Positions 1 to 64,000 of a stretch of 64,000 nucleotides of DNA are shown one piece after another; positions within the stretch are counted from its first letter, which is position 1, and the number at the start of each line of letters is the position of its first letter. Below the pieces are notes generated by a model. The model had not been told where the DNA came from and searched no databases. It saw only the letters and a program-made list of their open reading frames with translations. This DNA comes from Asterias amurensis (Eukaryota; Echinodermata; Asteroidea; Forcipulatida; Asteriidae): positions 7,514,501 through 7,578,500 of the forward strand of contig NC_092666.1 in assembly GCF_032118995.1 (NCBI RefSeq), read 5' to 3'. Made by a program: the position numbers and the translations under genes.

Positions 1-19
1 ATCACAGGCATATTACTCG

Positions 20-92
20 GGTGAGATTGGAACCCACGACCCTTGAAATTCTAGAGCAGTGTCATACCAACTAAACCACATAGATTGCCCGG
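20..92 (-). mobile_element. tRNA-derived SINE head (left copy)
   Basis: Read on the minus strand this has a tRNA-like pol III promoter: a box A-like GTGGTTTAGTTGG (66-80 region) and a box B-like GGGTTCCAATC (25-36), about 40 bases apart. A short flank (GAGGCAG and TTC) resembles the SINE head at 31455-31550. It is not a credible functional tRNA: acceptor-stem pairing is not evident and it sits in repeat DNA. Its duplicate is at 50377-50449. Confidence 0.6.
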
Positions 93-1483
93 TGGCTACA
101 CTAGAGGCAGTTCGGATATTATGTTTTAGCAGCGGGTACTGCGAACGATTTATTAATGTTAAATTTGCATCGGGGATAAAGAATATTCATTTTGTTTTTT
201 ACCCACACACACCGACGTGTGTTAGCACTGTACATATGCCTACTCAGTACTCGGTACTCATATTTATTAAACCATCCTTCCACCATGGTTAATCTTAAAA
301 CGAAATGGTGCATTGCCAACTGCTCATGAAAGCTGTGGGACATCTTAAAGTTTGTCCCGTTGTTATACAGAGAATCTTGCATCATCCATTTATTCCAATA
401 ACAAGTCAAGGAAATAGTTGACATTCCTAGTTCAATGAAGCATAACCCTGTGTAGAAGTGGCGCTAGAAAATTTAGGTCAGACCGCTATACGCCATAGGA
501 TACATGTCAATACCTTACATTATAGTAAATCAGTACTATCGAGAAACGATGTATAAAAAAGTGGAGCCGACTGGGGTTTACACTGACTTGCCATTCGAAA
601 CAGCATTATTTCGACTGAAAGCTCCAGTCGATCACAAACGCAACATCAAACGAGGCTGATGTAAGATTTAAAGAGCTTTGAGCGGGGAGAGGCACAACAG
701 CTAACAATAGCGAGAAAATAGCACCGTTTTCATTTCTGCGGACAGTTGGAAATTCGGTTGGGAAAACTGATACAAGCAAATCTGGTCGGATAACCATCAT
801 CCAACGTCTCGAGAGATGGGAGAAAAACCAGCATTTCCTCAGAGGACAGACAGAGAGTTTTAGTATCAGAGGAGGCATCCAAGAAAGAATTGGAGCTAAG
901 AAGACCGTAGATGCCAAGATGGCTACAGGACACTTTCTGCAAACTCTCATCTTTTACGAGGTAATGAAACTGATGTGTCGGTGTAATTGTTATGTCGCCC
1001 GATACAGCACCCTATTTGATGCCTATACGCAAAGCAAAGGCGAATAAAAGTTGAGTTTTGTTCGGTGGGAGGACTTAGCGTTGGCTGCAAGAATGCAACA
1101 GCGCGGTAATAGTTGCCATACCTATAGACCTGGCGGCCATATACTTTCGTATTATTAAATATAGTGTACGGATTTACAGTACAAAGAGTCCTATACAGAT
1201 CTACCATTCCTAGTTCATCGAAGCATTACCAGGTGTTTTTTTAAAGCAAAGGAGGCGCTAGAAGATTACAGTTCAGCCCGTTATACGCCAAATAGTCTAG
1301 TCTTTAAAGGCCCCCCAAAAATGACTTGACCTGTAGACGAAATTCCAACACCACATCGAAAAAGTAGAAAAAAAGCAAGCAGGTAAAATATGCATTGTTT
1401 GTGAAATTTCAAGTTGCCATTTTGCCTCTAGGTACATTAATGTATGTATGTATCCCTGGTAGTAGTCAAAGTTATATCATTTT
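93..1483. other. No recognised gene; duplicated unique sequence
   Basis: I recognise no gene or repeat family here. A stop-free plus-strand stretch of about 360 bases (682-1041) carries a GTAATG donor-like site after a Phe-Tyr-Glu run near 959, and the minus strand is open over 606-950, but neither resembles a known protein and this length is expected by chance. A short ATGT microsatellite lies near 1439-1452 and is one unit longer in the right copy. Confidence 0.5.
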
Positions 1484-1746
1484 CACAAATATGCCTCAAA
1501 ATTGAGTGGTTTTCGTTTTACCTCGTCGATAAACACGGTCGGCCATTTATGGGAGTCAAAACTTTGACTCCCATAAATAGTCGACCGAGTTAGTTCACGA
1601 CGTAAAATGAAAACCGTGCAATTTTGAGTGATACTTGTGTGGATCATTATATTCTACTTTTAAAACATCTTTCTAACCATATGCAAACGGTTTCAAACGC
1701 TGTTCATAGACCAACTCGTCCGATCTAAGGCAACGTGTTCCTTTAA
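1484..1746. mobile_element. Truncated TTAA-type fold-back element
   Basis: This is the centre and right arm of a palindromic element whose full version is at 52218-52587. The centre is the inverted pair GGGAGTCAAA / TTTGACTCCC around 1551-1572. The right end reads GGCAACGTGTTCCTTTAA. The left arm is missing because of a deletion relative to the right copy. A third member is at 34598-34987. It has no coding capacity. Confidence 0.85.
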
Positions 1747-2689
1747 TGAGGTTCCAAACTTTACAAGTTTTTTATCCCTAGCCCTGTCATGGGGGTTCCA
1801 GTATAATTTAATTAAATTTGTTTAATTAAGATTACGTGCGTAACAAGCCCCTACAAATGCTTGCAATAATGAGTGCACCTTTTTAAGGCCTGACCACACA
1901 AGGTCAGTAGATGTTAGGGAGGTTGACAGCCTTACCTAGTGGTGCCCAGTCTAAGGTGTCCAGCATAATTTAAAGCGCAAGTGACATAATTATTTCAATA
2001 ACTTTTAGTGCATTGTAATACGTGACGTAATACTTATTAAACTAAGTTCAGTCCCAAAAAATACTTAAACCCCCATAACCCTGCTAGAGATAATACTTTT
2101 GCAACCCCTCTCTAATATCTTCCGTTCCAGTGGTGACCGGTCCAAGGCGACAGACATAAATTAAAGCAGTCTCGCATTTCTTGTTAGGCATTAAACGCAA
2201 GTAACTTAAATTAAACAAATTTAGTTTCACTTTATTGTCACCTTAGATGCTTTATTTGGTAGGGTTAGTTTCAAGAGACAATTGCATGCAAATTCAGTGT
2301 GACAGTGATATCAATAGACCGATCCAGAAGGCACCGCTCACGACGCACGTGTGATCAAGAACACGTGGGGCTCTCCAATGTTTTTCTGCAGAACTCTGCC
2401 GCGCGCACCAAGATACGCGCACACATGTCGGACCTTCGTTGCTTTGTGATTGGTCAATACGCAATTGGGCGTAGCTTAATGAATCGGTCTATTAAACAAC
2501 TATCAGGGCGTGTGCACACATAAACTAGTGGAAATAACAGGCGAAAACGGCAATTTGAACTTGTGCAAGTTTCCAATATTTCTAAACTTGTATACATTTT
2601 CTATGCTTTGTATTTTTAAGTTTCAAGAAACGTTTGCATTAAAATTTGAGGTGAAAGTTTTCTTAATTGTACTACTATCTGGGCCTAAG
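1747..2689. other. No recognised gene; duplicated unique sequence
   Basis: AT-rich sequence with no supported gene. Two small indels separate it from the right copy: about 40 bases near 2349-2387 and about 15 bases near 2483-2500 are present here and absent at 53188 and 53285. Short open frames (2299-2523, 2510-2755) have no recognisable similarity. Confidence 0.5.
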
Positions 2690-5600
2690 AATGTTCAAAT
2701 AGAATTGAAAATATTGGCCAAAAGTAGGCGTCCTTTTTTGGCTTGCATCGCTTAGATCCAAGCCACAGACACAAAACAAAAACACTAAACTGTAGCCAAT
2801 GATTTACGCTTTCCGTTGGTGTATAGTATGTGCGAATCAAATAATGTATTGGATATTATATGGGCCTCCGTGTAGTGTCATTATTTGGAGAAAAACTTAC
2901 TTTTTTAGCCTTTTTCTCCCTTAGGGTGAGGGGTAGCTTTTTCGCCGCCCGTGTTGCGCAGATTTATGCGTCAGACACGAAACAATTATAAACGTGTAGC
3001 CCTTGAATGGGGCTTTCCTCTGGTTTATAGTATGTGTGGATCAACAATATTCTTCGGGTTCAAAATAACCTTTGTACTTTGAATTTCTCTCCAGAACGGC
3101 TAATATTGACGTCCGGAAAACACTCTTCGTGCCAACCATTCGGAGTAGGCTTGCTCAAACACTTTTTGAGCACCACGGAGTTGATGTAGGGTCTCATCAA
3201 GTTGATTATCGGATGTGGTATTATTCAAGCCACACACAGGTACCCTGATTATTTCTCTAGCCTACCAAGTTCAGGAATAATGGTCAAGTTCACAGACTCT
3301 GAGCGAACTTGTATGCCAACCATTTTCGGCACCCCGTTGCCTGGCGTTTTCAAACTTGACCAAAATGGCCGAAAATGGCTCCCTCCTTTGTCGGCTTGCA
3401 TCGCTTAGATCCAAGCCACAGACACAAACCAAAGACATGAAACTGTAGCCCATGTTTAGCGCGACCGTTGGTGTATAGTATGTGCGAATTGTATAATGTC
3501 TTGGATATGATATGGGCCTCCGTGTAGTGTCATTACTTGGAGAAAAACTTACTTTTTTAGCCTTTTTCTCCCTTAGGGTGAGGGGTAGCCTTTTCGCCGC
3601 CCTTGTTGCGCAGATTTATGCGTCAGACACGAAACAATTATAAACGTGTAGCCCTTGAAGGGGGTTTTCCTCTGGTGTATATTTTGTGTGGATCAACAAA
3701 TTTCTTTGGGTTCAAAATAACCTTTGTACTTTGAATTTCTCTCCAGAATGGCTAATATTGACGTCCGGAAAACACTCTTCGTGCCAACCATTCGGAGTAG
3801 GCTTGCTTAAACAATTTTTAAAGCACCACGGAGTTGATGGAGGGTCTCCGCAAGTTGATTATCGGATGCGGTATTATTCAAGCCACACACAGGTACCCTG
3901 ATTATTTCTCTAGCCTACCAAGTTCAGGAATAATGGTCAAGTTCACAGACTCTGAGCGAACTTGTATGCCAACCATTTTCGGCACCCCGTTGCCTGGCGT
4001 TTTCAAACTTGACCAAAATGGCCGAAAATGGCTCCCTGCTTTGTCGGCTTGCATCGCTTAGATCCAAGCCACAGACACAAACCAAAAACATTAAACTGTA
4101 GCCCATGATTAGCGCTTTCCGTTGGTGTATAGTATGTGCGAATCAAATAATGTATTGGATATTATATGGGCCTCCGTGTAGTGTCATTATTTGGAGAAAA
4201 ACTTACTTTTTTAGCCTTTTTCTCCCTTAGGGTGAGGGGTAGCTTTTTCGCCGCCCGTGTTGCGCAGATTTATGCGTCAGACACGAAACAATTATAAACG
4301 TGTAGCCCTTGAATGGGGCTTTCCTCTGGTTTATAGTATGTGTGGATCAACAATATTCTTCGGGTTCAAAATAACCTTTGTACTTTGAATTTCTCTCCAG
4401 AACGGCTAATATTGACGTCCGGAAAACACTCTTCGTGCCAACCATTCGGAGTAGGCTTGCTCAAACACTTTTTGAGCACCACGGAGTTGATGTAGGGTCT
4501 CATCAAGTTGATTATCGGATGTGGTATTATTCAAGCCACACACAGGTACCCTGATTATTTCTCTAGCCTACCAAGTTCAGGAATAATGGTCAAGTTCACA
4601 GACTCTGAGCGAACTTGTATGCCAACCATTTTCGGCACCCCGTTGCCTGGCGTTTTCAAACTTGACCAAAATGGCCGAAAATGGCTCCCTCCTTTGTCGG
4701 CTTGCATCGCTTAGATCCAAGCCACAGACACAAACCAAAGACATGAAACTGTAGCCCATGTTTAGCGCGACCGTTGGTGTATAGTATGTGCGAATTGTAT
4801 AATGTCTTGGATATGATATGGGCCTCCGTGTAGTGTCATTACTTGGAGAAAAACTTACTTTTTTAGCCTTTTTCTCCCTTAGGGTGAGGGGTAGCCTTTT
4901 CGCCGCCCTTGTTGCGCAGATTTATGCGTCAGACACGAAACAATTATAAACGTGTAGCCCTTGAAGGGGGTTTTCCTCTGGTGTATATTTTGTGTGGATC
5001 AACAAATTTCTTTGGGTTCAAAATAACCTTTGTACTTTGAATTTCTCTCCAGAATGGCTAATATTGACGTCCGGAAAACACTCTTCGTGCCAACCATTCG
5101 GAGTAGGCTTGCTTAAACAATTTTTAAAGCACCACGGAGTTGATGGAGGGTCTCCGCAAGTTGATTATCGGATGCGGTATTATTCAAGCCACACACAGGT
5201 ACCCTGATTATTTCTCTAGCCTACCAAGTTCAGGAATAATGGTCAAGTTCACAGACTCTGAGCGAACTTGTATGCCAACCATTTTCGGCACCCCGTTGCC
5301 TGGCGTTTTCAAACTTGACCAAAATGGCCGAAAATGGCTCCCTGCTTTGTCGGCTTGCATCGCTTAGATCCAAGCCACAGACACAAACCAAAAACATTAA
5401 ACTGTAGCCCATGATTAGCGCTTTCCGTTGGTGTATAGTATGTGCGAATTGTATAATGTCTTGGATATGATATGGGCCTCCGTGTAGTGTCATTATTTGG
5501 AGAAAAACTTACTTTTTTAGCCTTTTTCTCCCTTAGGGTGAGGGGTAGCTTTTTCGCCGCCCTTGTTGCGCAGGTTTATGCGTCAGACACGAAACAATTA

Positions 5601-6905
5601 TAAACGTGTAGCCCTTGAATGGGGCTTTCCTCTGGTTTATAGTATGTGTGGATCAACAATATTCTTCGGGTTCAAAATAACCTTTGTACTTTGAATTTCT
5701 CTCCAGAACGGCTAATATTGACGTCCGGAAAACACTCTTCGTGCCAACCATTCGGAGTAGGCTTGCTCAAACACTTTTTGAGCACCACGGAGTTGATGTA
5801 GGGTCTCATCAAGTTGATTATCGGATGTGGTATTATTCAAGCCACACACAGGTACCCTGATTATTTCTCTAGCCTACCAAGTTCAGGAATAATGGTCAAG
5901 TTCACAGACTCTGAGCGAACTTGTATGCCAACCATTTTCGGCACCCCGTTGCCTGGCGTTTTCAAACTTGACCAAAATGGCCGAAAATGGCTCCCTCCTT
6001 TGTCGGCTTGCATCGCTTAGATCCAAGCCACAGACACAAACCAAAAACATTAAACTGTAGCCCATGATTAGCGCTTTCCGTTGGTGTATAGTATGTGCGA
6101 ATTGTATAATGTCTTGGATATGATATGGGCCTCCGTGTAGTGTCATTATTTGGAGAAAAACTTACTTTTTTAGCCTTTTTCTCCCTTAGGGTGAGGGGTA
6201 GCTTTTTCGCCGCCCTTGTTGCGCAGGTTTATGCGTCAGACACGAAACAATTATAAACGTGTAGCCCTTGAATGGGGCTTTCCTCTGGTTTATAGTATGT
6301 GTGGATCAACAATATTCTTCGGGTTCAAAATAACCTTTGTACTTTGAATTTCTCTCCAGAACGGCTAATATTGACGTCCGGAAAACACTCTTCGTGCCAA
6401 CCATTCGGAGTAGGCTTGCTCAAACACTTTTTGAGCACCACGGAGTTGATGTAGGGTCTCATCAAGTTGATTATCGGATGTGGTATTATTCAAGCCACAC
6501 ACAGGTACCCTGATTATTTCTCTAGCCTACCAAGTTCAGGAATAATGGTCAAGTTCACAGACTCTGAGCGAACTTGTATGCCAACCATTTTCGGCACCCC
6601 GTTGCCTGGCGTTTTCAAACTTGACCAAAATGGCCGAAAATGGCTCCCTCCTTTGTCGGCTTGCATCGCTTAGATCCAAGCCACAGACACAAACCAAAAA
6701 CATGAAACTGTAGCCCATGATTAGCGCTTTCCGTTGGTGTATAGTATGTGCGAATTCAATAATGTCTTGGATACGATATGGGCCTCCGTGTAGTGTCATT
6801 GTTTGAAGAAAAACGTACGTTTTGAGCCTTTTTCCCTTAGGGTAAGGAGTAGCTTTTTTGCTGCCCTTTTTGCGCAGGCCTTGAATAGGGATTTGGCAAG
6901 GGGGT
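2690..6905. repeat. 653-bp satellite array, about 6.5 units
   Basis: Homologous landmarks recur exactly every 653 bases (3202, 3855, 4508, 5161, 5814, 6467). Two unit variants alternate. Type A carries GTTGATGTAGGGTCTCATC and type B carries GTTGATGGAGGGTCTCCGC; the order is A-B-A-B-A-A, so the left part is a 1306-bp higher-order dimer. Both edge units are diverged. A 68-75 residue open frame recurs in every unit, but only because the repeat is homogeneous; there is no known domain. The right copy of the duplication has about four units fewer. Confidence 0.95.
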
Positions 6906-7573
6906 ATTTTGGGTGCGTGGTTCTAGTCATGGTGCGAAAAAAAAGAACTTTGCAAAAATCTGACGTAAAGTAAACGTCTTTGATTAATACTCGTCGTTAT
7001 GCAAATCTTTAGTCTCGAGAATTTGGGAGCAATTCTGCCTAAAGTGAGCGCACTTTTGTGCTTTTGGAGGCTTATTAGTGAGTAATTATTTTTTTTACTT
7101 TCATTTCACGTCAGATTGTCTACTTTCCGGGGGGGAAATGCTAAAAAATCATCTTTTTTAGTAATTACAAATAGTGCCTTTAACAGCTTATGGAACTAGC
7201 CCATGGATGTATGACTTCTTACATCATCTCATACCTGACCAATTATAACTCAGAAAGTAAAAGCCCGTGAAGATTCCATTGATCGCTACTGCTATAAGAT
7301 CGTATTGATTAAGAAGAGCGCTTTTGTGATCCAATTTCTTTGTTATATTTGGTGTGGGGCTTGCATGCTCCTTGGCTAATTTGAATGTGAATAGCCCAGT
7401 TGTGAATAGTTCTTCTCAAGTAAGCACGTGATTGAGTGGAAATTTCTGCTACGAAACCTGCACACAGCACGGTTGAGTGACTCGTCAATATGCCGCGGTT
7501 GGAAGTGCTTGTTGGTGGATCTGTGTGCTGTGCTGTTTTGCTTTGCTTTGCTGTGCTATGTTTTGTGAGTACT
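6906..7573. other. Junction between two satellites; no recognised gene
   Basis: Duplicated unique DNA separating the 653-bp and 12-bp arrays. Near 7160-7188 a short piece (AGTAATTAC, then AGTGCCTTTAA) resembles the end of the TTAAAGGCAGTGG element found many times at 18-50 kb; it is at most a small remnant. Nothing else recognised. Confidence 0.45.
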
Positions 7574-10225
7574 GTTTCAGTTGTAGTTTCAGTTGTAGTT
7601 TCAGTTGTAGTTTCAGTTGTAGTTTCAGTTGTAGTTTCAGTTGTAGTTCCAGTTGTAGTTCCAGTTGTAGTTCCAGTTGTAGTCCCAGTTGTAGTCCCAG
7701 TTGTAGTCCCAGTTGTAGTCCCAGTTGTGGTCTCAGTTGTGGTCTCAGTTGTAGTCTCAGTTGTAGTCCCAGTTGTAGTCCCAGTTGTAGTCTCAGTTGT
7801 AGTCCCAGTTGTAGTCCCAGTTGTAGTCTCAGTTGTAGTCTCAGTTGTAGTCTCAGTTGTAGTCTCAGTTGTAGTCTCAGTTGTAGTCTCAGTTGTAGTC
7901 GCAGTTGTAGTCGCAGTTGTAGTCGCAGTTGTAGTCGCAGTTGTAGTCGCAGTTGTAGTCGCAGTTGTAGTCTCAGTTGTAGTCTCAGTTGTAGTCTCAG
8001 TTGTAGTCTCAGTTGTAGTCCCAGTTGTAGTCGCAGTTGTAGTCGCAGTTGTAGTCGCAGTTGTAGTCGCAGTTGTAGTCGCAGTTGTAGTCGCAGTTGT
8101 AGTCGCAGTTGTAGTCGCAGTTGTAGTCGCAGTTGTAGTCGCAGTTGTAGTCGCAGTTGTAGTCGCAGTTGTAGTCTCAGTTGTAGTCTCAGTTGTAGTC
8201 TCAGTTGTAGTCTCAGTTGTAGTCTCAGTTGTAGTCTCAGTTGTAGTCTCAGTTGTAGTCTCAGTTGTAGTCTCAGTTGTAGTCTCAGTTGTAGTCTCAG
8301 TTGTAGTCTCAGTTGTAGTCTCAGTTGTAGTCGCAGTTGTAGTCGCAGTTGTAGTCGCAGTTGTAGTCGCAGTTGTAGTCGCAGTTGTAGTCGCAGTTGT
8401 AGTCGCAGTTGTAGTCGCAGTTGTAGTCGCAGTTGTAGTCGCAGTTGTAGTCGCAGTTGTAGTCGCAGTTGTAGTCGCAGTTGTAGTCGCAGTTGTAGTC
8501 TCAGTTGTAGTCTCAGTTGTAGTCTCAGTTGTAGTCTCAGTTGTAGTCTCAGTTGTAGTCTCAGTTGTAGTCTCAGTTGTAGTCTCAGTTGTAGTCTCAG
8601 TTGTAGTCTCAGTTGTAGTCTCAGTTGTAGTCGCAGTTGTAGTCGCAGTTGTAGTCGCAGTTGTAGTCGCAGTTGTAGTCTCAGTTGTAGTCGCAGTTGT
8701 AGTCGCAGTTGTAGTCGCAGTTGTAGTCTCAGTTGTAGTCGCAGTTGTAGTCGCAGTTGTAGTCGCAGTTGTAGTCGCAGTTGTAGTCTCAGTTGTAGTC
8801 TCAGTTGTAGTCTCAGTTGTAGTCTCAGTTGTAGTCTCAGTTGTAGTCTCAGTTGTAGTCTCAGTTGTAGTCTCAGTTGTAGTCTCAGTTGTAGTCGCAG
8901 TTGTAGTCGCAGTTGTAGTCGCAGTTGTAGTCGCAGTTGTAGTCGCAGTTGTAGTCGCAGTTGTAGTCGCAGTTGTAGTCGCAGTTGTAGTCGCAGTTGT
9001 AGTCGCAGTTGTAGTCGCAGTTGTAGTCGCAGTTGTAGTCTCAGTTGTAGTCTCAGTTGTAGTCTCAGTTGTAGTCTCAGTTGTAGTCTCAGTTGTAGTC
9101 GCAGTTGTAGTCTCAGTTGTAGTCGCAGTTGTAGTCGCAGTTGTAGTCGCAGTTGTAGTCGCAGTTGTAGTCGCAGTTGTAGTCGCAGTTGTAGTCGCAG
9201 TTGTAGTCGCAGTTGTAGTCGCAGTTGTAGTCGCAGTTGTAGTCGCAGTTGTAGTCGCAGTTGTAGTCGCAGTTGTAGTCGCAGTTGTAGTCGCAGTTGT
9301 AGTCGCAGTTGTAGTCGCAGTTGTAGTCGCAGTTGTAGTCGCAGTTGTAGTCGCAGTTGTAGTCGCAGTTGTAGTCGCAGTTGTAGTCTCAGTTGTAGTC
9401 GCAGTTGTAGTCGCAGTTGTAGTCGCAGTTGTAGTCTCAGTTGTAGTCTCAGTTGTAGTCTCAGTTGTAGTCTCAGTTGTAGTCGCAGTTGTAGTCGCAG
9501 TTGTAGTCGCAGTTGTAGTCGCAGTTGTAGTCGCAGTTGTAGTCGCAGTTGTAGTCGCAGTTGTAGTCGCAGTTGTAGTCGCAGTTGTAGTCGCAGTTGT
9601 AGTCGCAGTTGTAGTCGCAGTTGTAGTCGCAGTTGTAGTCGCAGTTGTAGTCGCAGTTGTAGTCGCAGTTGTAGTCGCAGTTGTAGTCGCAGTTGTAGTC
9701 GCAGTTGTAGTCGCAGTTGTAGTCGCAGTTGTAGTCGCAGTTGTAGTCGCAGTTGTAGTCGCAGTTGTAGTCGCAGTTGTAGTCGCAGTTGTAGTCGCAG
9801 TTGTAGTCGCAGTTGTAGTCGCAGTTGTAGTCGCAGTTGTAGTCGCAGTTGTAGTCGCAGTTGTAGTCGCAGTTGTAGTCGCAGTTGTAGTCGCAGTTGT
9901 AGTCGCAGTTTTAGTCGCAGTTGTAGTCGCAGTTTTAGTCGCAGTTGTAGTCGCAGTTGTAGTCGCAGTTGTAGTCGCAGTTGTAGTCGCAGTTGTAGTC
10001 GCAGTTGTAGTCGCAGTTGTAGTCGCAGTTGTAGTCGCAGTTGTAGTCGCAGTTGTAGTCGCAGTTGTAGTCGCAGTTGTAGTCGCAGTTGTAGTCGCAG
10101 TTGTAGTCGCAGTTGTAGTCGCAGTTGTAGTCGCAGTTGTAGTCGCAGTTGTAGTCGCAGTTGTAGTCGCAGTTGTAGTCGCAGTTGTAGTCGCAGTTGT
10201 AGTCGCAGTTGTAGTCGCAGTTGTA
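7574..10225. repeat. 12-bp satellite array, 221 units
   Basis: Tandem repeat of AGTTGTAGTNNC, consensus AGTTGTAGTCGC, 2652 bases or 221 units with almost no length change. Variation is nearly confined to two positions, giving unit types TT, TC, CC, CT and CG. The left edge holds TT, TC and CC types, the middle has blocks of CT and CG, and the right several hundred bases are almost pure CG. Because 12 is divisible by three and only one frame meets TAG, five of six frames stay open, producing apparent proteins of more than 900 residues with four-residue repeats (VVVA, SCSR, TTTA, LQLR, CDYN). These are not genes. Confidence 0.97.
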
Positions 10226-12673
10226 GCCACATCGCAGAGGGTGCCTGACTACGAGCCACATCGCAGAGGGTGCCTGACTACGAGCCACATCGCAGAGGGT
10301 GCCTGACTACGAGCCACATCGCAGAGGGTGCCTGACTACGAGCCACATCGCAGAGGGTGCCTGACTACGAGCCACATCGCAGAGGGTGCCTGACTACGAG
10401 CCACATCGCAGAGGGTGCCTGACTACGAGCCACATCCCAGAGGGTGCCTGACTACGAGCCACATCCCAGAGGGTGCCTGACTACAAGCCACATCCCAGAG
10501 GTCGCCTGCCTAAAGGACATCATCCCATGTGATTGAAGCACATCAAACATTGGTAGATGGCTAGAAAATGATCTTGTTAATTCATTGGGTCTCGGTTTAA
10601 AACTTGGTCCCTCTTACAAAGCATGGTGGTTTAGACCCCCAAATGGTGTTGGAAGTCCCATCCCCTACAAGGTTCCTTTCCTTCGATAAATGCCTTTAAA
10701 AGTGCTTGTCCTAGCCGAATTTTTTTTAAATCTTTTTAGTGCCTGACTACAAGCCACATCCCAGAGGGTGCCTGACTACAAGCCACATCCCAGAGGGTGC
10801 CTGACTACGAGCCACATCCCAGAGGGTGCCTGACTACAAGCCACATCCCAGAGGGTGCCTGACTACAAGCCACATCGCAGAGGGTGCCTAACTACGAGCC
10901 ACATCGCAGAGGGTGCCTGACTACGAGCCACATCGCAGAGGGTGCCTGACTACGAGCCACATCGCAGAGGGTGCCTGACTACGAGCCACATCGCAGAGGG
11001 TGCCTGACTACGAGCCACATCGCAGAGGGTGCCTGACTACGAGCCACATCCCAGAGGGTGCCTGACTACGAGCCACATCCCAGAGGGTGCCTGACTACAA
11101 GCCACATCCCAGAGGTCGCCTGCCTAAAGGACATCATCCCATGTGATTGAAGCACATCAAACATTGGTAGATGGCTAGAAAATGATCTTGTTAATTCATT
11201 GGGTCTCGGTTTAAAACTTGGTCCCTCTTACAAAGCATGGTGGTTTAGACCCCCAAATGGTGTTGGAAGTCCCATCCCCTACAAGGTTCCTTTCCTTCGA
11301 TAAATGCCTTTAAAAGTGCTTGTCCTAGCCGAATTTTTTTTAAATCTTTTTAGTGCCTGACTACAAGCCACATCCCAGAGGGTGCCTGACTACAAGCCAC
11401 ATCCCAGAGGGTGCCTGACTACGAGCCACATCCCAGAGGGTGCCTGACTACAAGCCACATCCCAGAGGGTGCCTGACTACAAGCCACATCGCAGAGGGTG
11501 CCTAACTACGAGCCACATCCCAGAGGGTGCCTGACTACGAGCCACATCCCAGAGGGTGCTGACTACAAGCCACATCCCAGAGGGTGCCTGCCTAAAGGAC
11601 ATCATCCCATGTGATTGAAGCACATCAAACATTGGTAGATGGCTAGAAAATGATCTTGTTAATTCATTGGGTCTCGGTTTAAAACTTGGTCCCTCTTACA
11701 AAGCATGGTGGTTTAGACCCTAAATGGTGTTGGAAGTCCCATCCCCTACAAGGTTCCTTTCCTTCGATAAATGCCTTTAAAAGTGCTTGCCCTAGCCAAG
11801 TTTTTTTGTGTGAATCTTTTTAGTGCCTGACTACAAGCCACATCCCAGAGGGTGCCTGACTACGAGCCACATCCCAGAGGGTGCCTGACTACAAGCCACA
11901 TCCCAGAGGGTGCCTGACTACAAGCCACATCCCAGAGGGTGCCTGACTACGAGCCACATCCCAGAGGGTGCCTGACTACGAGCCACATCCCAGAGGGTGC
12001 CTGACTACGAGCCACATCCCAGAGGGTGCCTGACTACGAGCCATCATCCCATGTGATTGAAGCACATCAAACATTGGTAGATGGCTAGAAAATTATCTTG
12101 TTAATTAAAGGGCTCTCGGTTTAACACTTGGTCCCTCGTAGAAAACATGTTGGTTTAGACCCCCAAATGGTGTTGGAAGTTCCATCCCCTACAAGGTTCC
12201 TTTTCTTCGATAAATGCCTTTAAAAGTGCTTGCCCTAGCCAAGTTTTTTTGTGTGAATCTTTTTAGTGCCTGACTACAAGCCACATCCCAGAGGGTGCCT
12301 GACTACGAGCCACATCCCAGAGGGTGCCTGACTACAAGCCACATCCCAGAGGGTGCCTGACTACAAGCCACATCCTAGAGGGTGCCTGACTACGAGCCAC
12401 ATCCCAGAGGGTGCCTGACTACGAGCCACATCCCAGAGGGTGCCTGACTACGAGCCACATCCCAGAGGGTGCCTGACTACGAGCCATCATCCCATGTGAT
12501 TGAAGCACATCAAACATTGGTAGATGGCTAGAAAATTATCTTGTTAATTAAAGGGCTCTCGGTTTAACACTTGGTCCCTCGTAGAAAACATGTTGGTTTA
12601 GACCCCCAAATGGTGTTGGAAGTTCCATCCCCTACAAGGTTCCTTTTCTTCGATAAATGCCTTTAAAAGTGCT
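10226..12673. repeat. 29-bp minisatellite alternating with 190-240-bp spacers
   Basis: Blocks of a 29-bp unit (GCCACATCSCAGAGGGTGCC plus TGACTACRA) alternate with spacers that begin near CATCATCCCATGTGATTG and end in CTTTTTAG. Spacers lie at about 10504-10739, 11115-11353, 11586-11823, 12043-12266 and 12486-12673 (last one partial). Left blocks use the TCGCAG variant and later blocks TCCCAG. Spacers are of two kinds, differing in their left junction and in internal substitutions. The composite unit of block plus spacer is therefore itself repeated. The right copy has four spacers. Confidence 0.95.
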
Positions 12674-13612: not shown

Positions 13613-13690
13613 GATTTGTGAAGATTTCACATTTCGTTGGCCTGTTTAATTCATTCTTGGAAGTATATGTGCTTTTAGAAATATTGTCAA

Positions 13691-37304: not shown

Positions 37305-37346
37305 GTAACTTTTACAAGATTCAAATCCATCAAAGTCAACAATCGA

Positions 37347-52217: not shown

Positions 52218-52587
52218 TTAAAGGAACACGTTGCCTTGGATCGGTCGAGTTGGTCTTTGAAAAGCGTCCTGTAACCGCTTGTTATGGTTAGAAAGATGTT
52301 GTAAAAGTAGAATACAATGATCTACACAAATATGCCTCAAAATTGAGTGGTTTTCGTTTTACCTCGTCGATAAACACGGTCGGCCATTTATGGGAGTCAA
52401 AACTTTGACTCCCATAAATAGTCGACCGAGTTAGTTCACGACGTAAAATGAAAACCGTGCAATTTTGAGTGATACTTGTGTGGATCATTATATTCTACTT
52501 TTAAAACATCTTTCTAACCATATGCAAACGGTTTCAAACGCTGTTCATAGACCAACTCGTCCGATCTAAGGCAACGTGTTCCTTTAA
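52218..52587. mobile_element. TTAA-ended fold-back element (AAGGAACACG family), complete
   Basis: Starts TTAAAGGAACACGTTGCC and ends GGCAACGTGTTCCTTTAA, 370 bases, with the centre GGGAGTCAAAACTTTGACTC. It shows the state before the deletion seen at 1484. Confidence 0.92.
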
Positions 52588-53477
52588 TGAGGTTCCAAAC
52601 TTTACAAGTTTTTTATCCCTAGCCCTGTCATGGGGGTTCCAGTCTAATTTAATTAAATTTGTTTAATTAAGATTACGTGCGTAACAAGCCCCTACAAATG
52701 CTTGCAATAATGAGTGCACCTTTTTAAGGCCTGACCACACAAGGTCAGTAGATGTTAGGGAGGTTGACAGCCTTACCTAGTGGTGCCCAGTCTAAGGTGT
52801 CCAGCATAATTTAAAGCGCAAGTGACATAATTATTTCAATAACATTTAGTGCATTGTAATACGTGACGTAATACTTATTAAACTAAGTTCAGTCCCAAAA
52901 AATACTTAAACCCCCATAACCCTGCTAGAGATAATACTTTTGCAACCCCTCTCTAATATCTTCCGTTCCAGTGGTGACCGGTCCAAGGCGACAGACATAA
53001 ATTAAAGCAGTCTCGCATTTCTTGTTAGGCATTAAACGCAAGTAACTTAAATTAAACAAATTTAGTTTCACTTTATTGTCACCTTAGATGCTTTATTTGG
53101 TAGGGTTAGTTTCAAGAGACAATTGCATGCAAATTCAGTGTGACAGTGATATCAATAGACCGATCCAGAAGGCACCGCTCACGACGCACTGCAGAACTCT
53201 GCCGCGCGCACCAAGATACGCGCACACATGTCGGACCTTCGTTGCTTTGTGATTGGTCAATACGCAATTGGGCGGAGCTTAGTGAAACTATCAGGGCGTG
53301 TGCACACATAAACTAGTGGAAATAACAGGCGAAAACGGCAATTTGAACTTGTGCAAGTTTCCAATATTTCTAAACTTGTATACATTTTCGATGCTTTGTA
53401 TTTTTAAGTTTCAAGAAACGTTTGCATTAAAATTTGAGGTGAAAGTTTTCTTAATTGTACTACTATCTGGGCCTAAG
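52588..53477. other. Duplicated unique DNA, no recognised gene
   Basis: Counterpart of 1747-2689 with two small deletions relative to it. Nothing coding recognised. Confidence 0.5.
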
Positions 53478-55082
53478 AATGTTCAAATAGAATTGAAAAT
53501 ATTGGCCAAAAGTAGGCGTCCTTTTTTGGCTTGCATCGCTTAGATCCAAGCCACAGACACAAAACAAAAACACTATACTGTAGCCAATGATTTACGCTTT
53601 CCGTTGGTGTATAGTATGTGCGAATCAAATAATGTATTGGATATTATATGGGCCTCCGTGTAGTGTCATTATTTGGAGAAAAACTTACTTTTTTAGCCTT
53701 TTTCTCCCTTAGGGTGAGGGGTAGCTTTTTCGCCGCCCTTGTTGCGCAGATTTATGCGTCAGACACGAAACAATTATAAACGTGTAGCCCTTGAATGGGG
53801 CTTTCCTCTGGTGTATATTTTGTGTGGATCAACAAATTTCTTTGGGTTCAAAATAACCTTTGTACTTTGAATTTCTCTCCAGAATGGCTAATATTGACGT
53901 CCGGAAAACACTCTTCGTGCCAACCATTCGGAGTAGGCTTGCTTAAACGTTTTTTAAAGCACCACGGAGTTGATGGAGGGTCTCCGCAAGTTGATTATCG
54001 GATGCGGTATTATTCAAGCCACACACAGGTACCCTGATTATTTCTCTAGCCTACCAAGTTCAGGAATAATGGTCAAGTTCACAGACTCTGAGCGAACTTG
54101 TATGCCAACCATTTTCGGCACCCCGTTGCCTGGCGTTTTCAAACTTGACCAAAATGGCCGAAAATGGCTCCCTCTTTTGTCGGCTTGCATCGCTTAGATC
54201 CAAGCCACAGACACAAAACAAAAACATGAAACTGTAGCCCATGATTAGCGCGACCGTTGGTGTATAGTATGTGCGAATCCAATAATGTATTGGATATGAT
54301 ATGGGCCTCCGTGTAGTGTCATTATTTGGAGAAAAACTTACTTTTTTTAGCCTTTTTCTCCCTTAGGGTGAGGGGTAGCTTTTTCGCCGCCCTTGTTGCG
54401 CAGATTTATGCGTCAGACACGAAACAATTATAAACGTGTAGCCCTTGAATAGGGCTTTCCTCTGGTGTATATTATGTGTGGATCAACAATATTTTTCGGG
54501 TTCAAAATAACCTTTGTACTTTGAATTTCTCTCCAGAACGGCTAATATTGACGTCCGGAAAACACTCTTCGTGCCAACCATTCGGAGTAGGCTTGCTCAA
54601 ACACTTTTTGAGCACCACGGAGTTGATGTAGGGTCTCATCAAGTTGATTATCGGATGTGGTATTATTCAAGCCACACACAGGTACCCTGATTATTTCTCT
54701 AGCCTACCAAGTTCAGGAATAATGGTCAAGTTCACAGACTCTGAGCGAACTTGTACGCCAACCATTTTCGGCACCCCGTTGCCTGGCGTTTTCAAACTTG
54801 ACCAAAATGGCCGAAAATGGCTCCCTCCTTTGTCGGCTTGCATCGCTTAGATACAAGCCACAGACACAAACCAAAAACATGAAACTGTAGCCCATGATTA
54901 GCGCTTTCCGTTGGTGTATAGTATGTGCGAATTCAATAATGTCTTGGATACGATATGGGCCTCCGTGTAGTGTCATTGTTTGAAGAAAAACGTACGTTTT
55001 GAGCCTTTTTCCCTTAGGGTAAGGAGTAGCTTTTTTGCTGCCCTTTTTGCGCAGGCCTTGAATAGGGATTTGGCAAGGGGGT
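53478..55082. repeat. 653-bp satellite array, about 2.5 units
   Basis: Two full units (landmarks at 53991, type B, and 54644, type A) between the same diverged edge units as in the left copy. The array differs from the left one by very nearly 4 x 653 bases. Confidence 0.95.
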
Positions 55083-55750
55083 ATTTTGGGTGCGTGGTTC
55101 TAGTCATGGTGCGAAAAAAAAGAACTTTGCAAAAATCTGACGTAAAGTAAACGTCTTTGATTAATACTCGTTTTTATGCAAATCTTTAGTCTCGAGAATT
55201 TGGGAGCAATTCTGCCTAAAGTGAGCGCACTTTTGTGCTTTTGGAGGCTTATTAGTGAGTAATTATTTTTTTAACTTTCATTTCACGTCAGATTGTCTAC
55301 TTTCCGGGGGGGAAATGCTAAAAAATCATCTTTTTTAGTAATTACAAATAGTGCCTTTAACAGCTTATGGAACTAGCCCATGGATGTATGACTTCTTACA
55401 TCATTTCATAGCTGACCAATTATAACTCAGAAAGTAAAAGCCCGTGAAGATTCCATTGATCGCTACTGCTATAAGATCGTATTGATTAAGAAGAGCGCTT
55501 TTGTGATCCAATTTCTTTGTTATTTTTGGTGTGGGGCTTGCATGCTCCTTGGCTAATTTGAATGTGAATAGCCCAGTTGTGAATAGTTCTTCTCAAGTAA
55601 GCACGTGATTGAGTGGAAATTTCTGCTACGAAACCTGCACACAGCACGGTTGAGTGACTCGTCAATATGCCGCGGTTGGAAGTGCTTGTTGGTGGATCTG
55701 TGTGCTGTGCTGTTTTGCTTTGCTTTGCTGTGCTATGTTTTGTGAGTACT
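55083..55750. other. Junction between satellites, no recognised gene
   Basis: Counterpart of 6906-7573 with few substitutions. Confidence 0.45.
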
Positions 55751-58700
55751 GTTTCAGTTGTAGTTTCAGTTGTAGTTTCAGTTGTAGTTTCAGTTGTAGT
55801 TTCAGTTGTAGTTTCAGTTGTAGTTCCAGTTGTAGTTCCAGTTGTAGTTCCAGTTGTAGTCCCAGTTGTAGTCCCAGTTGTAGTCCCAGTTGTAGTTTCA
55901 GTTGTAGTTTCAGTTGTAGTCTCAGTTGTAGTCTCAGTTGTAGTCTCAGTTGTAGTCCCAGTTGTAGTCCCAGTTGTAGTCCCAGTTGTAGTCCCAGTTG
56001 TAGTCCCAGTTGTAGTCCCAGTTGTAGTCCCAGTTGTAGTCGCAGTTGTAGTCGCAGTTGTAGTCGCAGTTGTAGTCGCAGTTGTAGTCTCAGTTGTAGT
56101 CTCAGTTGTAGTCTCAGTTGTAGTCTCAGTTGTAGTCTCAGTTGTAGTCTCAGTTGTAGCCGCAGTTGTAGTCTCAGTTGTAGTCTCAGTTGTAGTCTCA
56201 GTTGTAGCCGCAGTTGTAGCCGCAGTTGTAGCCGCAGTTGTAGTCGCAGTTGTAGTCGCAGTTGTAGTCTCAGTTGTAGTCTCAGTTGTAGTCTCAGTTG
56301 TAGTCTCAGTTGTAGTCGCAGTTGTAGTCGCAGTTGTAGTCGCAGTTGTAGTCGCAGTTGTAGTCGCAGTTGAAGTCGCAGTTGTAGTCGCAGTTGTAGT
56401 CGCAGTTGTAGTCGCAGTTGTAGTCGCAGTTGTAGTCGCAGTTGTAGTCGCAGTTGTAGTCTCAGTTGTAGTCTCAGTTGTAGTCTCAGTTGTAGTCTCA
56501 GTTGTAGTCTCAGTTGTAGTCTCAGTTGTAGTCTCAGTTGTAGTCTCAGTTGTAGTCTCAGTTGTAGTCTCAGTTGTAGTCTCAGTTGTAGTCTCAGTTG
56601 TAGTCTCAGTTGTAGTCTCAGTTGTAGTCTCAGTTGTAGTCGCAGTTGTAGTCGCAGTTGTAGTCGCAGTTGTAGTCGCAGTTGTAGTCGCAGTTGTAGT
56701 CGCAGTTGTAGTCGCAGTTGTAGTCGCAGTTGTAGTCGCAGTTGTAGTCGCAGTTGTAGTCGCAGTTGTAGTCGCAGTTGTAGTCGCAGTTGTAGTCGCA
56801 GTTGAAGTCGCAGTTGTAGTCGCAGTTGTAGTCGCAGTTGTAGTCGCAGTTGTAGTCGCAGTTGTAGTCGCAGTTGTAGTCGCAGTTGTAGTCGCAGTTG
56901 TAGTCTCAGTTGTAGTCTCAGTTGTAGTCGCAGTTGTAGCCGCAGTTGTAGCCGCAGTTGTAGCCGCAGTTGTAGCCGCAGTTGTAGCCGCAGTTGTAGC
57001 CGCAGTTGTAGCCGCAGTTGTAGTCTCAGTTGTAGTCTCAGTTGTAGTCTCAGTTGTAGTCTCAGTTGTAGTCTCAGTTGTAGTCGCAGTTGTAGTCGCA
57101 GTTGTAGTCGCAGTAGTAGTCGCAGTTGTAGTCGCAGTTGTAGTCGCAGTTGTAGTCGCAGTTGTAGTCGCAGTTGTAGTCTCAGTTGTAGTCTCAGTTG
57201 TAGTCTCAGTTGTAGTCTCAGTTGTAGTCTCAGTTGTAGTCTCAGTTGTAGTCTCAGTTGTAGTCTCAGTTGTAGTCTCAGTTGTAGTCTCAGTTGTAGT
57301 CTCAGTTGTAGTCTCAGTTGTAGTCACAGTTGTAGTCTCAGTTGTAGTCTCAGTTGTAGTCTCAGTTGTAGTCTCAGTTGTAGTCTCAGTTGTAGTCTCA
57401 GTTGTAGTCTCAGTTGTAGTCTCAGTTGTAGTCGCAGTTGTAGTCGCAGTTGTAGTCGCAGTTGTAGTCGCAGTTGTAGTCGCAGTTGTAGTCGCAGTTG
57501 TAGTCGCAGTTGTAGTCGCAGTTGTAGTCGCAGTTGTAGTCGCAGTTGTAGTCGCAGTTGTAGTCGCAGTTGTAGTCGCAGTTGTAGTCGCAGTTGTAGT
57601 CGCAGTTGTAGTCGCAGTTGTAGTCGCAGTTGTAGTCGCAGTTGTAGTCGCAGTTGTAGTCGCAGTTGTAGTCGCAGTTGTAGTCGCAGTTGTAGTCGCA
57701 GTTGTAGTCGCAGTTGTAGTCGCAGTTGTAGTCGCAGTTGTAGTCGCAGTTGTAGTCGCAGTTGTAGTCGCAGTTGTAGTCGCAGTTGTAGTCGCAGTTG
57801 TAGTCGCAGTTGTAGTCGCAGTTGTAGTCGCAGTTGTAGTCGCAGTTGTAGTCTCAGTTGTAGTCTCAGTTGTAGTCTCAGTTGTAGTCTCAGTTGTAGT
57901 CTCAGTTGTAGTCGCAGTTGTAGTCGCAGTTGTAGTCGCAGTTGTAGTCGCAGTTGTAGTCGCAGTTGTAGTCGCAGTTGTAGTCGCAGTTGTAGTCGCA
58001 GTTGTAGTCGCAGTTGTAGTCGCAGTTGTAGTCGCAGTTGTAGTCGCAGTTGTAGTCGCAGTTGTAGTCGCAGTTGTAGTCGCAGTTGTAGTCGCAGTTG
58101 TAGTCGCAGTTGTAGTCGCAGTTGTAGTCGCAGTTGTAGTCGCAGTTGTAGTCGCAGTTGTAGTCGCAGTTGTAGTCGCAGTTGTAGTCGCAGTTGTAGT
58201 CGCAGTTGTAGTCGCAGTTGTAGTCGCAGTTGTAGTCTCAGTTGTAGTCGCAGTTGTAGTCTCAGTTGTAGTCTCAGTTGTAGTCTCAGTTGTAGTCTCA
58301 GTTGTAGTCGCAGTTGTAGTCGCAGTTGTAGTCGCAGTTGTAGTCGCAGTTGTAGTCGCAGTTGTAGTCGCAGTTGTAGTCGCAGTTGTAGTCGCAGTTG
58401 TAGTCGCAGTTGTAGTCGCAGTTGTAGTCGCAGTTGTAGTCGCAGTTGTAGTCGCAGTTGTAGTCGCAGTTGTAGTCGCAGTTGTAGTCGCAGTTGTAGT
58501 CGCAGTTGTAGTCTCAGTTGTAGTCTCAGTTGTAGTCGCAGTTGTAGTCGCAGTTGTAGTCGCAGTTGTAGTCGCAGTTGTAGTCGCAGTTGTAGTCGCA
58601 GTTGTAGTCGCAGTTGTAGTCGCAGTTGTAGTCTCAGTTGTAGTCGCAGTTGTAGTCGCAGTTGTAGTCGCAGTTGTAGTCGCAGTTGTAGTCGCAGTTG

Positions 58701-59591
58701 TAGTCGCAGTTGTAGTCGCAGTTGTAGTCGCAGTTGTAGTCGCAGTTGTAGTCGCAGTTGTAGTCGCAGTTGTAGTCGCAGTTGTAGTCGCAGTTGTAGT
58801 CGCAGTTGTAGTCGCAGTTGTAGTCGCAGTTGTAGTCGCAGTTGTAGTCGCAGTTGTAGTCGCAGTTGTAGTCGCAGTTGTAGTCGCAGTTGTAGTCGCA
58901 GTTGTAGTCGCAGTTGTAGTCGCAGTTGTAGTCGCAGTTGTAGTCGCAGTTGTAGTCGCAGTTGTAGTCGCAGTTGTAGTCGCAGTTGTAGTCGCAGTTG
59001 TAGTCGCAGTTGTAGTCGCAGTTGTAGTCGCAGTTGTAGTCGCAGTTGTAGTCGCAGTTGTAGTCGCAGTTGTAGTCGCAGTTGTAGTCGCAGTTGTAGT
59101 CGCAGTTGTAGTCGCAGTTGTAGTCGCAGTTGTAGTCGCAGTTGTAGTCGCAGTTGTAGTCGCAGTTGTAGTCGCAGTTGTAGTCGCAGTTGTAGTCGCA
59201 GTTGTAGTCGCAGTTGTAGTCGCAGTTGTAGTCGCAGTTGTAGTCGCAGTTGTAGTCGCAGTTGTAGTCGCAGTTGTAGTCGCAGTTGTAGTCGCAGTTG
59301 TAGTCGCAGTTGTAGTCGCAGTTGTAGTCGCAGTTGTAGTCGCAGTTGTAGTCGCAGTTGTAGTCGCAGTTGTAGTCGCAGTTGTAGTCGCAGTTGTAGT
59401 CGCAGTTGTAGTCGCAGTTGTAGTCGCAGTTGTAGTCGCAGTTGTAGTCGCAGTTGTAGTCGCAGTTGTAGTCGCAGTTGTAGTCGCAGTTGTAGTCGCA
59501 GTTGTAGTCGCAGTTGTAGTCGCAGTTGTAGTCGCAGTTGTAGTCGCAGTTGTAGTCGCAGTTGTAGTCGCAGTTGTAGTCGCAGTTGTAG
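55751..59591. repeat. 12-bp satellite array, about 320 units
   Basis: Same unit as at 7574. The first twelve units show the same variant order as the left copy (six TT, three TC, three CC) and then the order diverges. A GCCGC variant (AGTTGTAGCCGC) is present in blocks here (for example 56936-57020) and absent from the left array. The last 950 or so bases are pure CG type. Five frames are open over most of the length; the long frames are not genes. Confidence 0.97.
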
Positions 59592-61113
59592 CCACATCGC
59601 AGTTGTAGCCACATCGCAGTTGTAGCCACATCGCAGAGGGTGCCTGACTACGAGCCACATCCCAGAGGGTGCCTGACTACAAGCCACATCCCAGAGGGTG
59701 CCTGCCTAAAGGACATCATCCCATGTGATTGAAGCACATCAAACATTGGTAGATGGCTAGAAAATGATCTTGTTAATTCAAGGGGTCTCGGTTTAAGACT
59801 TGGTCCCTCTTAGAAAACTTTTTGGTTTAGACCCTCAAATGGTGTTGGAAGTCCCATCCCCTACATGGTGTCTTTCCGTTGATGTATGCCTTTAAAAGTG
59901 CTTGCCCTAACCAAGTTTTTTTGTGTGGATCTTTTTAGTGCCTGACTACGAGCCACATCCCAGAGGGTGCCTGACTACGAGCCACATCCCAGAGGGTGCC
60001 TGAATACGAGCCACATCCCAGAGGGTGCCTGACTACGAGCCACATCCCAGAGGGTGCCTGACTACAAGCCACATCCCAGAGGGTGCCTGCCTAAAGGACA
60101 TCATCCCATGTGATTGAAGCTCATCAAACATTGGTAGATGGCTAGAAAATGATCTTGTTAATTCATTGGGTCTCGGTTTAAAACTTGGTCCATCTTACAA
60201 AGCATGGTGGTTTAGACCCCCAAATGGTGTTGGAAGTCCCATCCCCTACAAGGTTCCTTTCCTTCGATAAATGCCTTTAAAAGTGCTTGTCCTAGCCGAA
60301 TTTTTTTTTAATCTTTTTAGTGCCTGACTTCAAGCCACATCCCAGAGGGTGCCTGACTACAAGCCACATCCCAGAGGGTGCCTGACTACGAGCCACATCC
60401 CAGAGGGTGCCTGACTACAAGCCACATCCCAGAGGGTGCCTGACTACAAGCCACATCCCAGAGGGTGCCTGCCTAAAGGACATCATCCCATGTGATTGAA
60501 GCACATCAAACATTGGTAGATGGCTAGAAAATGATCTTGTTAATTCATTGGGTCTCGGTTTAAAACTTGGTCCCTCTTACAAAGCATGGTGGTTTAGACC
60601 CCCAAATGGTGTTGGAAGTCCCATCCCCTACAAGGTTCCTTTCCTTCGATAAATGCCTTTAAAAGTGCTTGCCCTAGCCAAGTTTTTTTTGTGTGAATCT
60701 TTTTAGTGCCTGACTACAAGCCACATCCCAGAGGGTGCCTGACTACGAGCCACATCCCAGAGGGTGCCTGACTACAAGCCACATCCCAGAGGGTGCCTGA
60801 CTACAAGCCACATCCCAGAGGGTGCCTGACTACGAGCCACATCCCAGAGGGTGCCTGACTACGAGCCACATCCCAGAGGGTGCCTGACTACGAGCCACAT
60901 CCCAGAGGGTGCCTGACTACGAGCCATCATCCCATGTGATTGAAGCACATCAAACATTGGTAGATGGCTAGAAAATTATCTTGTTAATTAAAGGGCTCTC
61001 GGTTTAACACTTGGTCCCTCGTAGAAAACATGTTGGTTTAGACCCCCAAATGGTGTTGGAAGTTCCATCCCCTACAAGGTTCCTTTTCTTCGATAAATGC
61101 CTTTAAAAGTGCT
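59592..61113. repeat. 29-bp minisatellite alternating with 190-240-bp spacers
   Basis: Four spacers at about 59700-59937, 60084-60320, 60468-60706 and 60926-61113, separated by short blocks of the 29-bp unit. The first spacer is more diverged than any in the left copy. Confidence 0.95.
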
Positions 61114-61333
61114 TTAAAAGTCAGTTTAAGCATTTTTTAAGCAGTAGTCCTGTGATGATCATCTGGGACCAATTTTATAGAGCTGTTTAGGCAGAAATAT
61201 TGCTAAAACAGTTCTCTATTATTTTATGCTTGGATCCTTTTTGTGCCTATAAGCATCTCTATGAAATTTGCCCCTGATGATCTATGTCTTTATATGGTTT
61301 GTACTTATGTAGTACATTGTAATTTTCTTTCAG

Positions 61334-62052
61334 ATGATTGTGACGACTGCTTTCCAGCCATCCCGTCAACCTGGACCATGAAGATGTGACAGCACAGTAC
61401 AGAGAGAGAGAGATACATCATGGCTTGAGGCAGCTACATACCAGGGTCCCAAATGGAATATGAAGGTAAGATGTCTTTTAAGTTAAGCTTGACTTTCAAG
61501 TTTAGAAGTCAATTAAAGTGCATAAAATTGACATTTCTTGGGTCTCATAATTAAAGTTAGTCCCATTTACCTTGCACGAATACTGTTAAAGGGCCAGGAG
61601 CGTCACTGAGTGAGGGATATGCATGCTTTATAAAAAGCCATTATTGTTACTATTATGCACAAATCTTCGATCTTTAAATCCAAGTCGCAATCTAACTGGT
61701 TTATTTTTCGGTTTTTGATCATATTACAGGACTAACGCAGTCGAACAACTTTGAGTTGGACACATCAAGATGCTGAGCCACCTTATGCCGTACCATTTAA
61801 AGTCAGCATAGCATACAACATCATCATCACCACCTCATCTAAGGCGTCATGACAACAGATGAACACATTGTCAACAGAATGGAACCCAAGTACACGAATG
61901 AGACGAAGAGACAGACCAAGTTGGCGTTAGATGGATGACATCAAGCAACAAGCACAAGAAAGATCAAGGTGGAATGGTGATGAAGAAGCCTTCCTTCTGC
62001 AGTATGGAGCCACATAGGCTAGATATTATGTCACTTACAATAAAAAAAAAAG
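61334..62052 (+). other. Exon-like pair and LINE-like tail (right copy)
   Basis: Counterpart of 12895-13612. Acceptor and donor sites are conserved (61334-61465; second segment from 61730). The LINE-like tail at 61880-62017 lacks the second stop found in the left copy. The A-run is interrupted by a T. Confidence 0.25.
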
Positions 62053-62129
62053 ATTTGTGAAGATTTCACGTTTCGTTGGCCTGTTTAGTTCATTCTTGGA
62101 AGTATATGTGCTTTTAGAAATATTGTCAA

Positions 62130-62351
62130 CATACTTGAAATGAGGTACTTCATTACAAGTATGTAGACAGAATACATAATAAACTTGTATCGAGGTACTA
62201 TACAAGTTCATGTATTCACATACAAAAATTGCATGTTTGTAATAAGGTACTTCATTACAATCATGTAATTATAACATGCTTGCAATAAAGTACCTTATTG
62301 CAAGTATGTAAAAGCTTCATGTGCGTAATGAAGTACCGCATTACAACCATG
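62130..62351. repeat. Cluster of five GTAC-centred palindromes (right copy)
   Basis: Same five palindromes as 13691-13912. Two substitutions lie in the arms: the A of CATACATG is T here, improving pairing of the first, and GAGG is AAGG in the third. Confidence 0.85.
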
Positions 62352-62716
62352 AAACAAGTTAAGTTAATTTGTAATGCAGTTTGCTAATTACAAAATACGA
62401 AACAACATAATTTTATTTGTAGTAAATTCATAACAAATAAAAAGAGAATTTGTTTTAATGAGTTTGTTTAAGTGTTTATTAGACATTAAGTTTTGTATTG
62501 TTACTACTTAATTTGAATAATGAATCAAATATAAAATGTAACTTTTGTAATGTGTCATTCTGTCTATCAATTATTTATTAGTCTAATTGTTTACATGGTA
62601 TTTGTTCTGGGGTAGCTTACATGGTGGCCACCATACTTTGTTGTTGGTAACTCTGAATAAAGCTTTTAATGTGAAAGGTCATGCCATTGTGTCGTGTGAA
62701 AATGGAGGTTGGTTAA
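62352..62716. other. AT-rich spacer, no recognised gene
   Basis: Counterpart of 13913-14277, essentially identical. Confidence 0.4.
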
Positions 62717-63848
62717 GAGTACTCATTAAACGAGTTTATTTAAGTACAAGGGTCATGACAATGTCATAGGGTACTCATTAACAAGGTTATTTAATTACAA
62801 AGGGAATGACAATGTCATAGAGTACTCATTAACGAGGTTATTTAATTACAAAGGTTATGACAATGTCATAGAGTACTCATTAACGAGGTTAATTAATTAC
62901 AAAGGGAATGACAATGTCACAGAGTACTCATTAACGAGGTTATTTAATTACAAAGGTCATGACAATGTCATATAGTACTCATTAAAGAGGTGATTTAATT
63001 ACAAAGGTATTGACAATGTCATAGAGAACTCATTAACGAGGTTAAATAATTACAAAGGGAACGGCAATGTCATAGAGTACTCACCAATGAGATGATTTAA
63101 TTACAAAGGTATTGACAATGTCACAAGAGTACTCATTAACGAGGTTATATTAATTACAAAGGTGATGACAATGTCATAGAGAACTCATTAACGAGGTTAA
63201 TTAATTACAAAGGGAATGGCAATGTCATAGAGTACTCACCAATGAGATGATTTAATTACAAAGGTATTGACAATGTCATAGGGTACTCATTAACGAGGTT
63301 ATTTAATTACAAAGGGAATGACAATGTCATAGAGTACTCATTAACGAGGTTAATTAATTACAAAGGGAATGACAATGTCATAGAGTACTCATTAACGAGG
63401 TTATTTAATTACAAAGGGAATGACAATGTCATAGAGTACTCATTAACGAGGTTAATTAATTACAAAGGGAATGACATTGTCATAGAGTACTCATTAACGA
63501 GGTGATTAAACTACAAAGGTGTTGACAATGTCATAGGGTACTCATTAACGAGGTTATTTAGTTACACAGCTATTGACATTGTTTAGCTGTATAGAGTACT
63601 CATTAACAAGGTTGAATAATTTCAAAGGTCATGACATTATCTGAATAGAGTACTCATTAACAAGGTTTTATAATTACAAAGGTCATGACATTGTCTTAGC
63701 TGTATAGAGTACTCATTGACAAGGTTTTATAATTACAAAGGTCATGACATTGTCTTAGCTGTATAGAGTACTCATTAACAAGAATTAATAATTACAAAGG
63801 TCATGGCATTGTCTTAGCTGAATAGAGTACTCATTAACAAGATTTTAT
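62717..63848. repeat. 51-bp tandem array, about 22 units
   Basis: Same units as 14278-15716, including the longer 60-bp forms at the right end. Missing units come from the middle of the array, since both edges match. Confidence 0.93.
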
Positions 63849-64000
63849 ATTATAATAATAATATAAAATAATAGTGATAAATAATTTTCAGAGAGGGGTA
63901 ACATTACAAATAAGCAATTGTTGTAGTGGTTACACACTCAAATTTATTACGATCCCTTTTGTGGGGTGGGAGATGACAACCTTCACGTGGTCCACCCTGT

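Follow-up and report, generated by a model that had tools for sequence, protein, structure and literature searches.

The most important finding of our analysis was that the 64,000 nucleotides of Asterias amurensis DNA studied here (the window) carry two collinear direct copies of one sequence, A (positions 1-15868) and B (50359-64000), both of which run off the window, and that these copies are probably the products of a genuine recent tandem duplication, plausibly made by unequal exchange and followed by fast turnover of minisatellites. We infer that A and B truly stand in series in the animal and that crossing-over and end joining were the mechanisms at work. The layout, as obtained by BLAST comparison of the opening 30 kb with the closing 19 kb and of the whole window with itself, was as follows:

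1-15868, forward strand: copy A, the match extending to the window start
15869-50358: middle of 34.5 kb, with remnants of LINE-type reverse transcriptase and other repeats
50359-64000, forward strand: copy B, the match extending to the window end
A 1-1486 with B 50359-51846: BLAST chain block, direct
A 1484-2348 with B 52325-53189: BLAST chain block, direct
A 2386-4267 with B 53189-55054: BLAST chain block, direct
A 5345-10226 with B 53521-58403: BLAST chain block, direct
A 11881-15353 with B 60320-63817: BLAST chain block, direct
A 14584-15868 with B 62716-64000: BLAST chain block, direct

Copy A (15868 bp) is 2226 bp longer than copy B (13642 bp), and the offset from A to B accordingly falls from 50358 bp at the left end to 48132 bp at the right end. 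The 64000 bases contain zero N. An earlier note on this DNA had described A and B as matching in order and orientation, with coordinates that proved right in the BLAST comparison; its half a dozen differences in the first 1.5 kb correspond to 4 mismatches and 3 small indels in the block 1-1486/50359-51846, and the matches that it saw reaching both window edges were recovered as chain ends at 1 and 64000. With both copies at the window edges, neither their true extent nor the period is bounded within the window. The same note called the 34 kb in between unrelated to the copies, which holds for most of the middle; at E 1e-3, its only similarity to A or B is one foldback element, a palindromic sequence (34597-34989) resembling B 52218-52589 at 81-85%.

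Outside the tandem arrays, 22 of the 5110 aligned sites differ between the copies, i.e. 0.431% (95% confidence interval 0.270-0.652%), a count made over six single-copy stretches (with mismatch rates of 0.27, 0.23, 0.91, 0.86, 0.38 and 0.66%) from which the arrays, A 2349-2385 (an indel) and 12675-12693 (an array edge) were left out. Among the single-copy alignments, those of some 860, 1490 and 1580 bases are more than 99% identical and, in our judgement, exceed chance by far. Of the small indels outside the arrays, the main ones measure about 37 bp (A 2349-2385, in single-copy DNA) and 15 bp (A 2483). The longest exact run shared by A and B measures 816 bp, so that long accurate reads (of HiFi length) should separate the copies. 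The SNPs are slightly clumped, with a variance-to-mean ratio of 1.69 in 300-bp bins (p = 0.039) and six SNPs in the largest cluster within 300 bp (p = 0.093), both judged against 5000 random placements. Such clumping would show in mosaic alleles, in duplicates made by exchange between homologues and in gene-converted duplicates.

The window likely comes from the published A. amurensis assembly, which was assembled by hifiasm using PacBio HiFi reads that amount to 25.97 Gb over 483 Mb, about 54x, and then thinned by Purge_haplotigs, and for which a k-mer heterozygosity of 0.96%, heterozygous SNPs at 0.632%, seven duplicated BUSCOs among 954 (0.7%) and a TRF coverage of 13.95% of the assembly length are given (PMC11090083). 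The divergence between A and B lies at or slightly below this mean allelic difference; the probability of finding 22 or fewer mismatches at a rate of 0.632% is 0.0365 in a test that is rough, as rates vary along the genome. The view of the earlier note that low divergence together with changes in array length looks allelic agrees with the comparison of 0.43% with 0.632%, and a young duplication fits the same figures.

Nearly all of the length difference between the copies resides in tandem arrays and one deletion. Four arrays and the deletion, of about 480 bp, together give a net 2175 of the 2226 bp, and the remainder consists of small indels. The arrays are:

A 2731-6877: 653-bp array, 6.4 units
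B 53519-55054: 653/654-bp array, 2.4 units
A 7578-10226: 12-bp minisatellite CAGTTGTAGTCG, 220 whole units
B 55755-59591: 12-bp minisatellite, 319 whole units
A 10225-12674: 29-bp repeats with higher-order periods of 443 bp and 614 bp
B 59624-60934: 29-bp repeats with a higher-order period of 382 bp
A 14277-15717: 51/59-bp array, 26.0 copies of the 51-bp unit (TRF)
B 62716-63849: 51/59-bp array, 20.0 copies of the 51-bp unit (TRF)

In the 653-bp array of A, unit 2 is identical to unit 4 and unit 5 to unit 6. The first unit differs between A and B at 17 of 652 sites, and the partial units at the array end match at 228 of 229 sites. In the 12-bp minisatellite, the variant maps of A and B have the first eleven units in common and then diverge. 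This array turnover apparently postdates the separation of the copies, as indicated by the identical units within A and by the near-identical partial units at the array ends of A and B. Duplication of units would explain this pattern, and so would gene conversion, and turnover after the split fits either real copies or alleles. We also observed that several frames on both strands of the 12-bp minisatellite (7578-10226 and 55755-59591) are open for hundreds of codons. These frames appear to be open owing to the repeat only, and were not counted as genes; gene finders could make false protein calls there.

A difference outside the arrays is associated with a palindromic element, for which the relevant features are:

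B 51847-52324: 478 bp that are missing from A, where the join lies at 1484-1486
B 52218-52587: complete palindromic MITE with TTAA at each end, of which A retains only what lies rightward of the deletion (1484 onwards)
34597-34989 (middle): second complete copy of the MITE family, aligning end to end with B 52218-52589

The right part of the 478-bp stretch falls inside the MITE of B, and the deletion has cut the element in A. The presence of a complete copy in the middle that aligns from end to end with that of B indicates that the B form is ancestral and that A carries a deletion. Terminal inverted repeats are present (outer arms of 50 nt at 92% and inner arms of 119 nt at 85%), and the copies at 52218 and 34597 have TTAA at either end, a motif that is its own reverse complement and may represent a target duplication or belong to the inverted repeat. 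The element is a candidate MITE of the piggyBac type. The deletion ends have three bases, CAC, in common (A 1484-1486); short shared bases of this kind are often left by end joining.

We found no duplicated gene in A and B in a partial search, in which four ORFs of copy A were among 18 scanned with Pfam. These 18 ORFs were picked by hand, mostly as the longest, from 311 ORFs (at least 50 aa, start before 50359) in a list made after masking of the 12-, 29- and 51-bp arrays, a procedure by which short exons could be missed. The ORFs of copy A (682-1044 on the forward strand and 122-463, 609-953 and 6539-6922 on the reverse strand) gave zero Pfam matches, at an E-value cut-off of 0.01 for the first and of 0.1 for the others. 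Among the 14 ORFs of the middle the sole match above the cut-off was RVT_1; one other ORF showed a sub-threshold match to Ly-6_related (E 0.038; 14.7 bits, below the cut-off of 24.4). A tandem unit of ribosomal or other RNA genes was rejected as well, with zero Rfam matches at the gathering score in the window.

The RVT_1 match (E 2.7e-24 on the first piece) belongs to a LINE-type reverse transcriptase remnant at 22581-24815, a single reading frame interrupted by two stop codons. Among the best 120 of 3488 proteins, its close relatives come from A. amurensis and Patiria miniata, and some of the best relatives carry endonuclease/exonuclease domains, which are a LINE feature. The region at 22.8-24.5 kb shares 97% of 200 residues, and 82% of another 301 aligned positions, with one A. 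amurensis protein among these 120, which was taken for a different copy of the same element. Another ORF, of retrotransposon type, places the window in this sea star or a very close species:

47430-48272, reverse strand: retrotransposon-type ORF, of which the aligned part (47430-48113) is 100% identical over 228 aligned residues to an A. amurensis protein among the best 120 of 2020

The middle holds several further repeats. Divergent repeats at 37345-40464, spaced by about 130-380 bp, have G runs and T runs on the forward strand, with a strong GC skew (0.389 at 38-40 kb), and related pieces, at 22.2-22.6 kb and 25.3-25.6 kb, flank the reverse transcriptase. A 194-bp tandem array lies at 16377-17653, with related inverted pieces at 49054-49280. 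An interspersed family of up to about 390 bp occurs in both orientations (19833-20220, 29524-29906, 35066-35448, 36039-36426, 46410-46799 and 49697-50081); its members are 80-91% alike in most of the longer matches listed and 60-73% alike in some ungapped ones.

The course of events that we propose would start with a direct duplication of a unit of about 50 kb, or with the copying of some 16 kb or more to a nearby position. Unequal crossing over is its most likely origin; this may have involved the two homologous chromosomes and so left two alleles in series. Once separate, the copies would have accumulated changes of about 0.4% in their single-copy parts, A would have lost about 480 bp through end joining at the 3-bp microhomology, and the four tandem arrays would have grown, shrunk or become homogenised fast and independently. 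As unequal crossing over between homologues would put real alleles in series, an allele-like look is not evidence for an artefact. Real copies are favoured by their collinearity within one 64 kb stretch, by the zero N and by exact runs that do not exceed 816 bp, which falls short of proof, as neither gap filling nor a graph error would be visible in the letters. Against them count the divergence at the level of alleles, the slight clumping of SNPs and the failure to identify a junction repeat, the latter because neither copy ends inside the window. A related and unlikely reading is that of a standing copy-number polymorphism, in which exchange between homologues put two alleles of a minisatellite-laden unit of 50 kb in series, possibly within a longer macrosatellite.

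The earlier note had left the choice between a tandem duplication and two haplotypes in series, and both survive: a divergence of 0.43% fits either, and the zero N speaks against a false duplication made at the scaffold level. A false (heterotype) duplication, in which the assembler set two alleles one after the other within a contig or a gap-filled scaffold, is the most serious competitor and is still clearly less probable than real copies. It would account for a mismatch count within or just below the allelic range, for the large differences in array length, such as alleles show, and for the clumped SNPs. In the study by Ko et al., 61-92% of the residual false duplications in long-read (VGP) assemblies lie on one scaffold, some of them joined without a gap and some by stretches that lack read support (PMC9516828). 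The same study describes false pairs as most often separated by a gap, whereas our window is free of N (PMC9516828), and a gapless false series would require an overlap by which the downstream side of one copy leads back to the upstream side of the other. The combination of HiFi reads, hifiasm, thinning by Purge_haplotigs and only 0.7% duplicated BUSCOs, as given in the genome report, also argues against it and makes false duplications look uncommon in that assembly, if this is indeed the source of the window (PMC11090083). Ko et al. further mention a tandem duplication that is real but allele-specific, contained in one contig and covered at haploid depth (PMC9516828). A real duplication on one homologue may thus show haploid depth, and spanning reads outweigh depth as a test.

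Two other arrangements were considered. The matches touch both edges and leave room for more copies, so the window could represent about 1.3 units of a macrosatellite-like tandem family that has at least three copies of an approximately 50 kb unit; a further copy is not seen within the 64 kb, and we give this arrangement a low probability. That a single, very large mobile element has A and B as its terminal repeats, as direct copies flanking a middle of 34.5 kb might suggest, is extremely improbable. The sole Pfam match above the cut-off in the 14 ORFs of the middle is a reverse transcriptase with LINE-like relatives, the A/B match does not stop within the window, although a terminus would require it to, and we know of no LTR element for which terminal direct repeats of at least 13.6 kb would not be far out of range. 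A giant LTR-like element was therefore rejected on repeat length, on the type of reverse transcriptase and on the lack of an inner terminus.

If the duplication is real, as we consider probable, it is a young one with an internal clock, in which the interiors of minisatellites were largely rearranged against a single-copy change of 0.4%. If the polymorphism reading is true, array turnover could be timed against single-base change in the adjoining DNA, and if the duplication is false, this is another spot where an assembly overstates copy number. General understanding remains unchanged in either case, real or false.

Hypervariable minisatellite (VNTR) loci are characterised by shared array ends, turned-over interiors and a copy number that varies between close copies. 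The arrays of A and B resemble them in all these respects (shared ends, turned-over interiors and different copy numbers), and nothing notable goes beyond the norm of such loci except the occurrence of four arrays inside 16 kb. Another useful comparison is that with the Sp185/333 cluster of the sea urchin, which consists of tandem segmental duplications of 4.2-4.6 kb, mostly gene-bearing and bounded by GAT repeats, for which unequal crossing over between homologues has been put forward and of which the repeats and mismatched alleles hampered assembly (PMC5103432). Both cases concern direct, nearby copies in an echinoderm with tandem repeats associated with the units; unlike Sp185/333 as described there, the period here is about 50 kb, the four scanned ORFs of A have no Pfam match and the arrays lie inside the copies (PMC5103432). 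With heterotype false duplications, as portrayed by Ko et al., our copies share the divergence at the level of alleles, the common record and the same orientation, and they differ from the typical case in having no gap between them (PMC9516828). Seen beside these systems, the duplication of A and B is of an ordinary kind, whether as an event or as an error.
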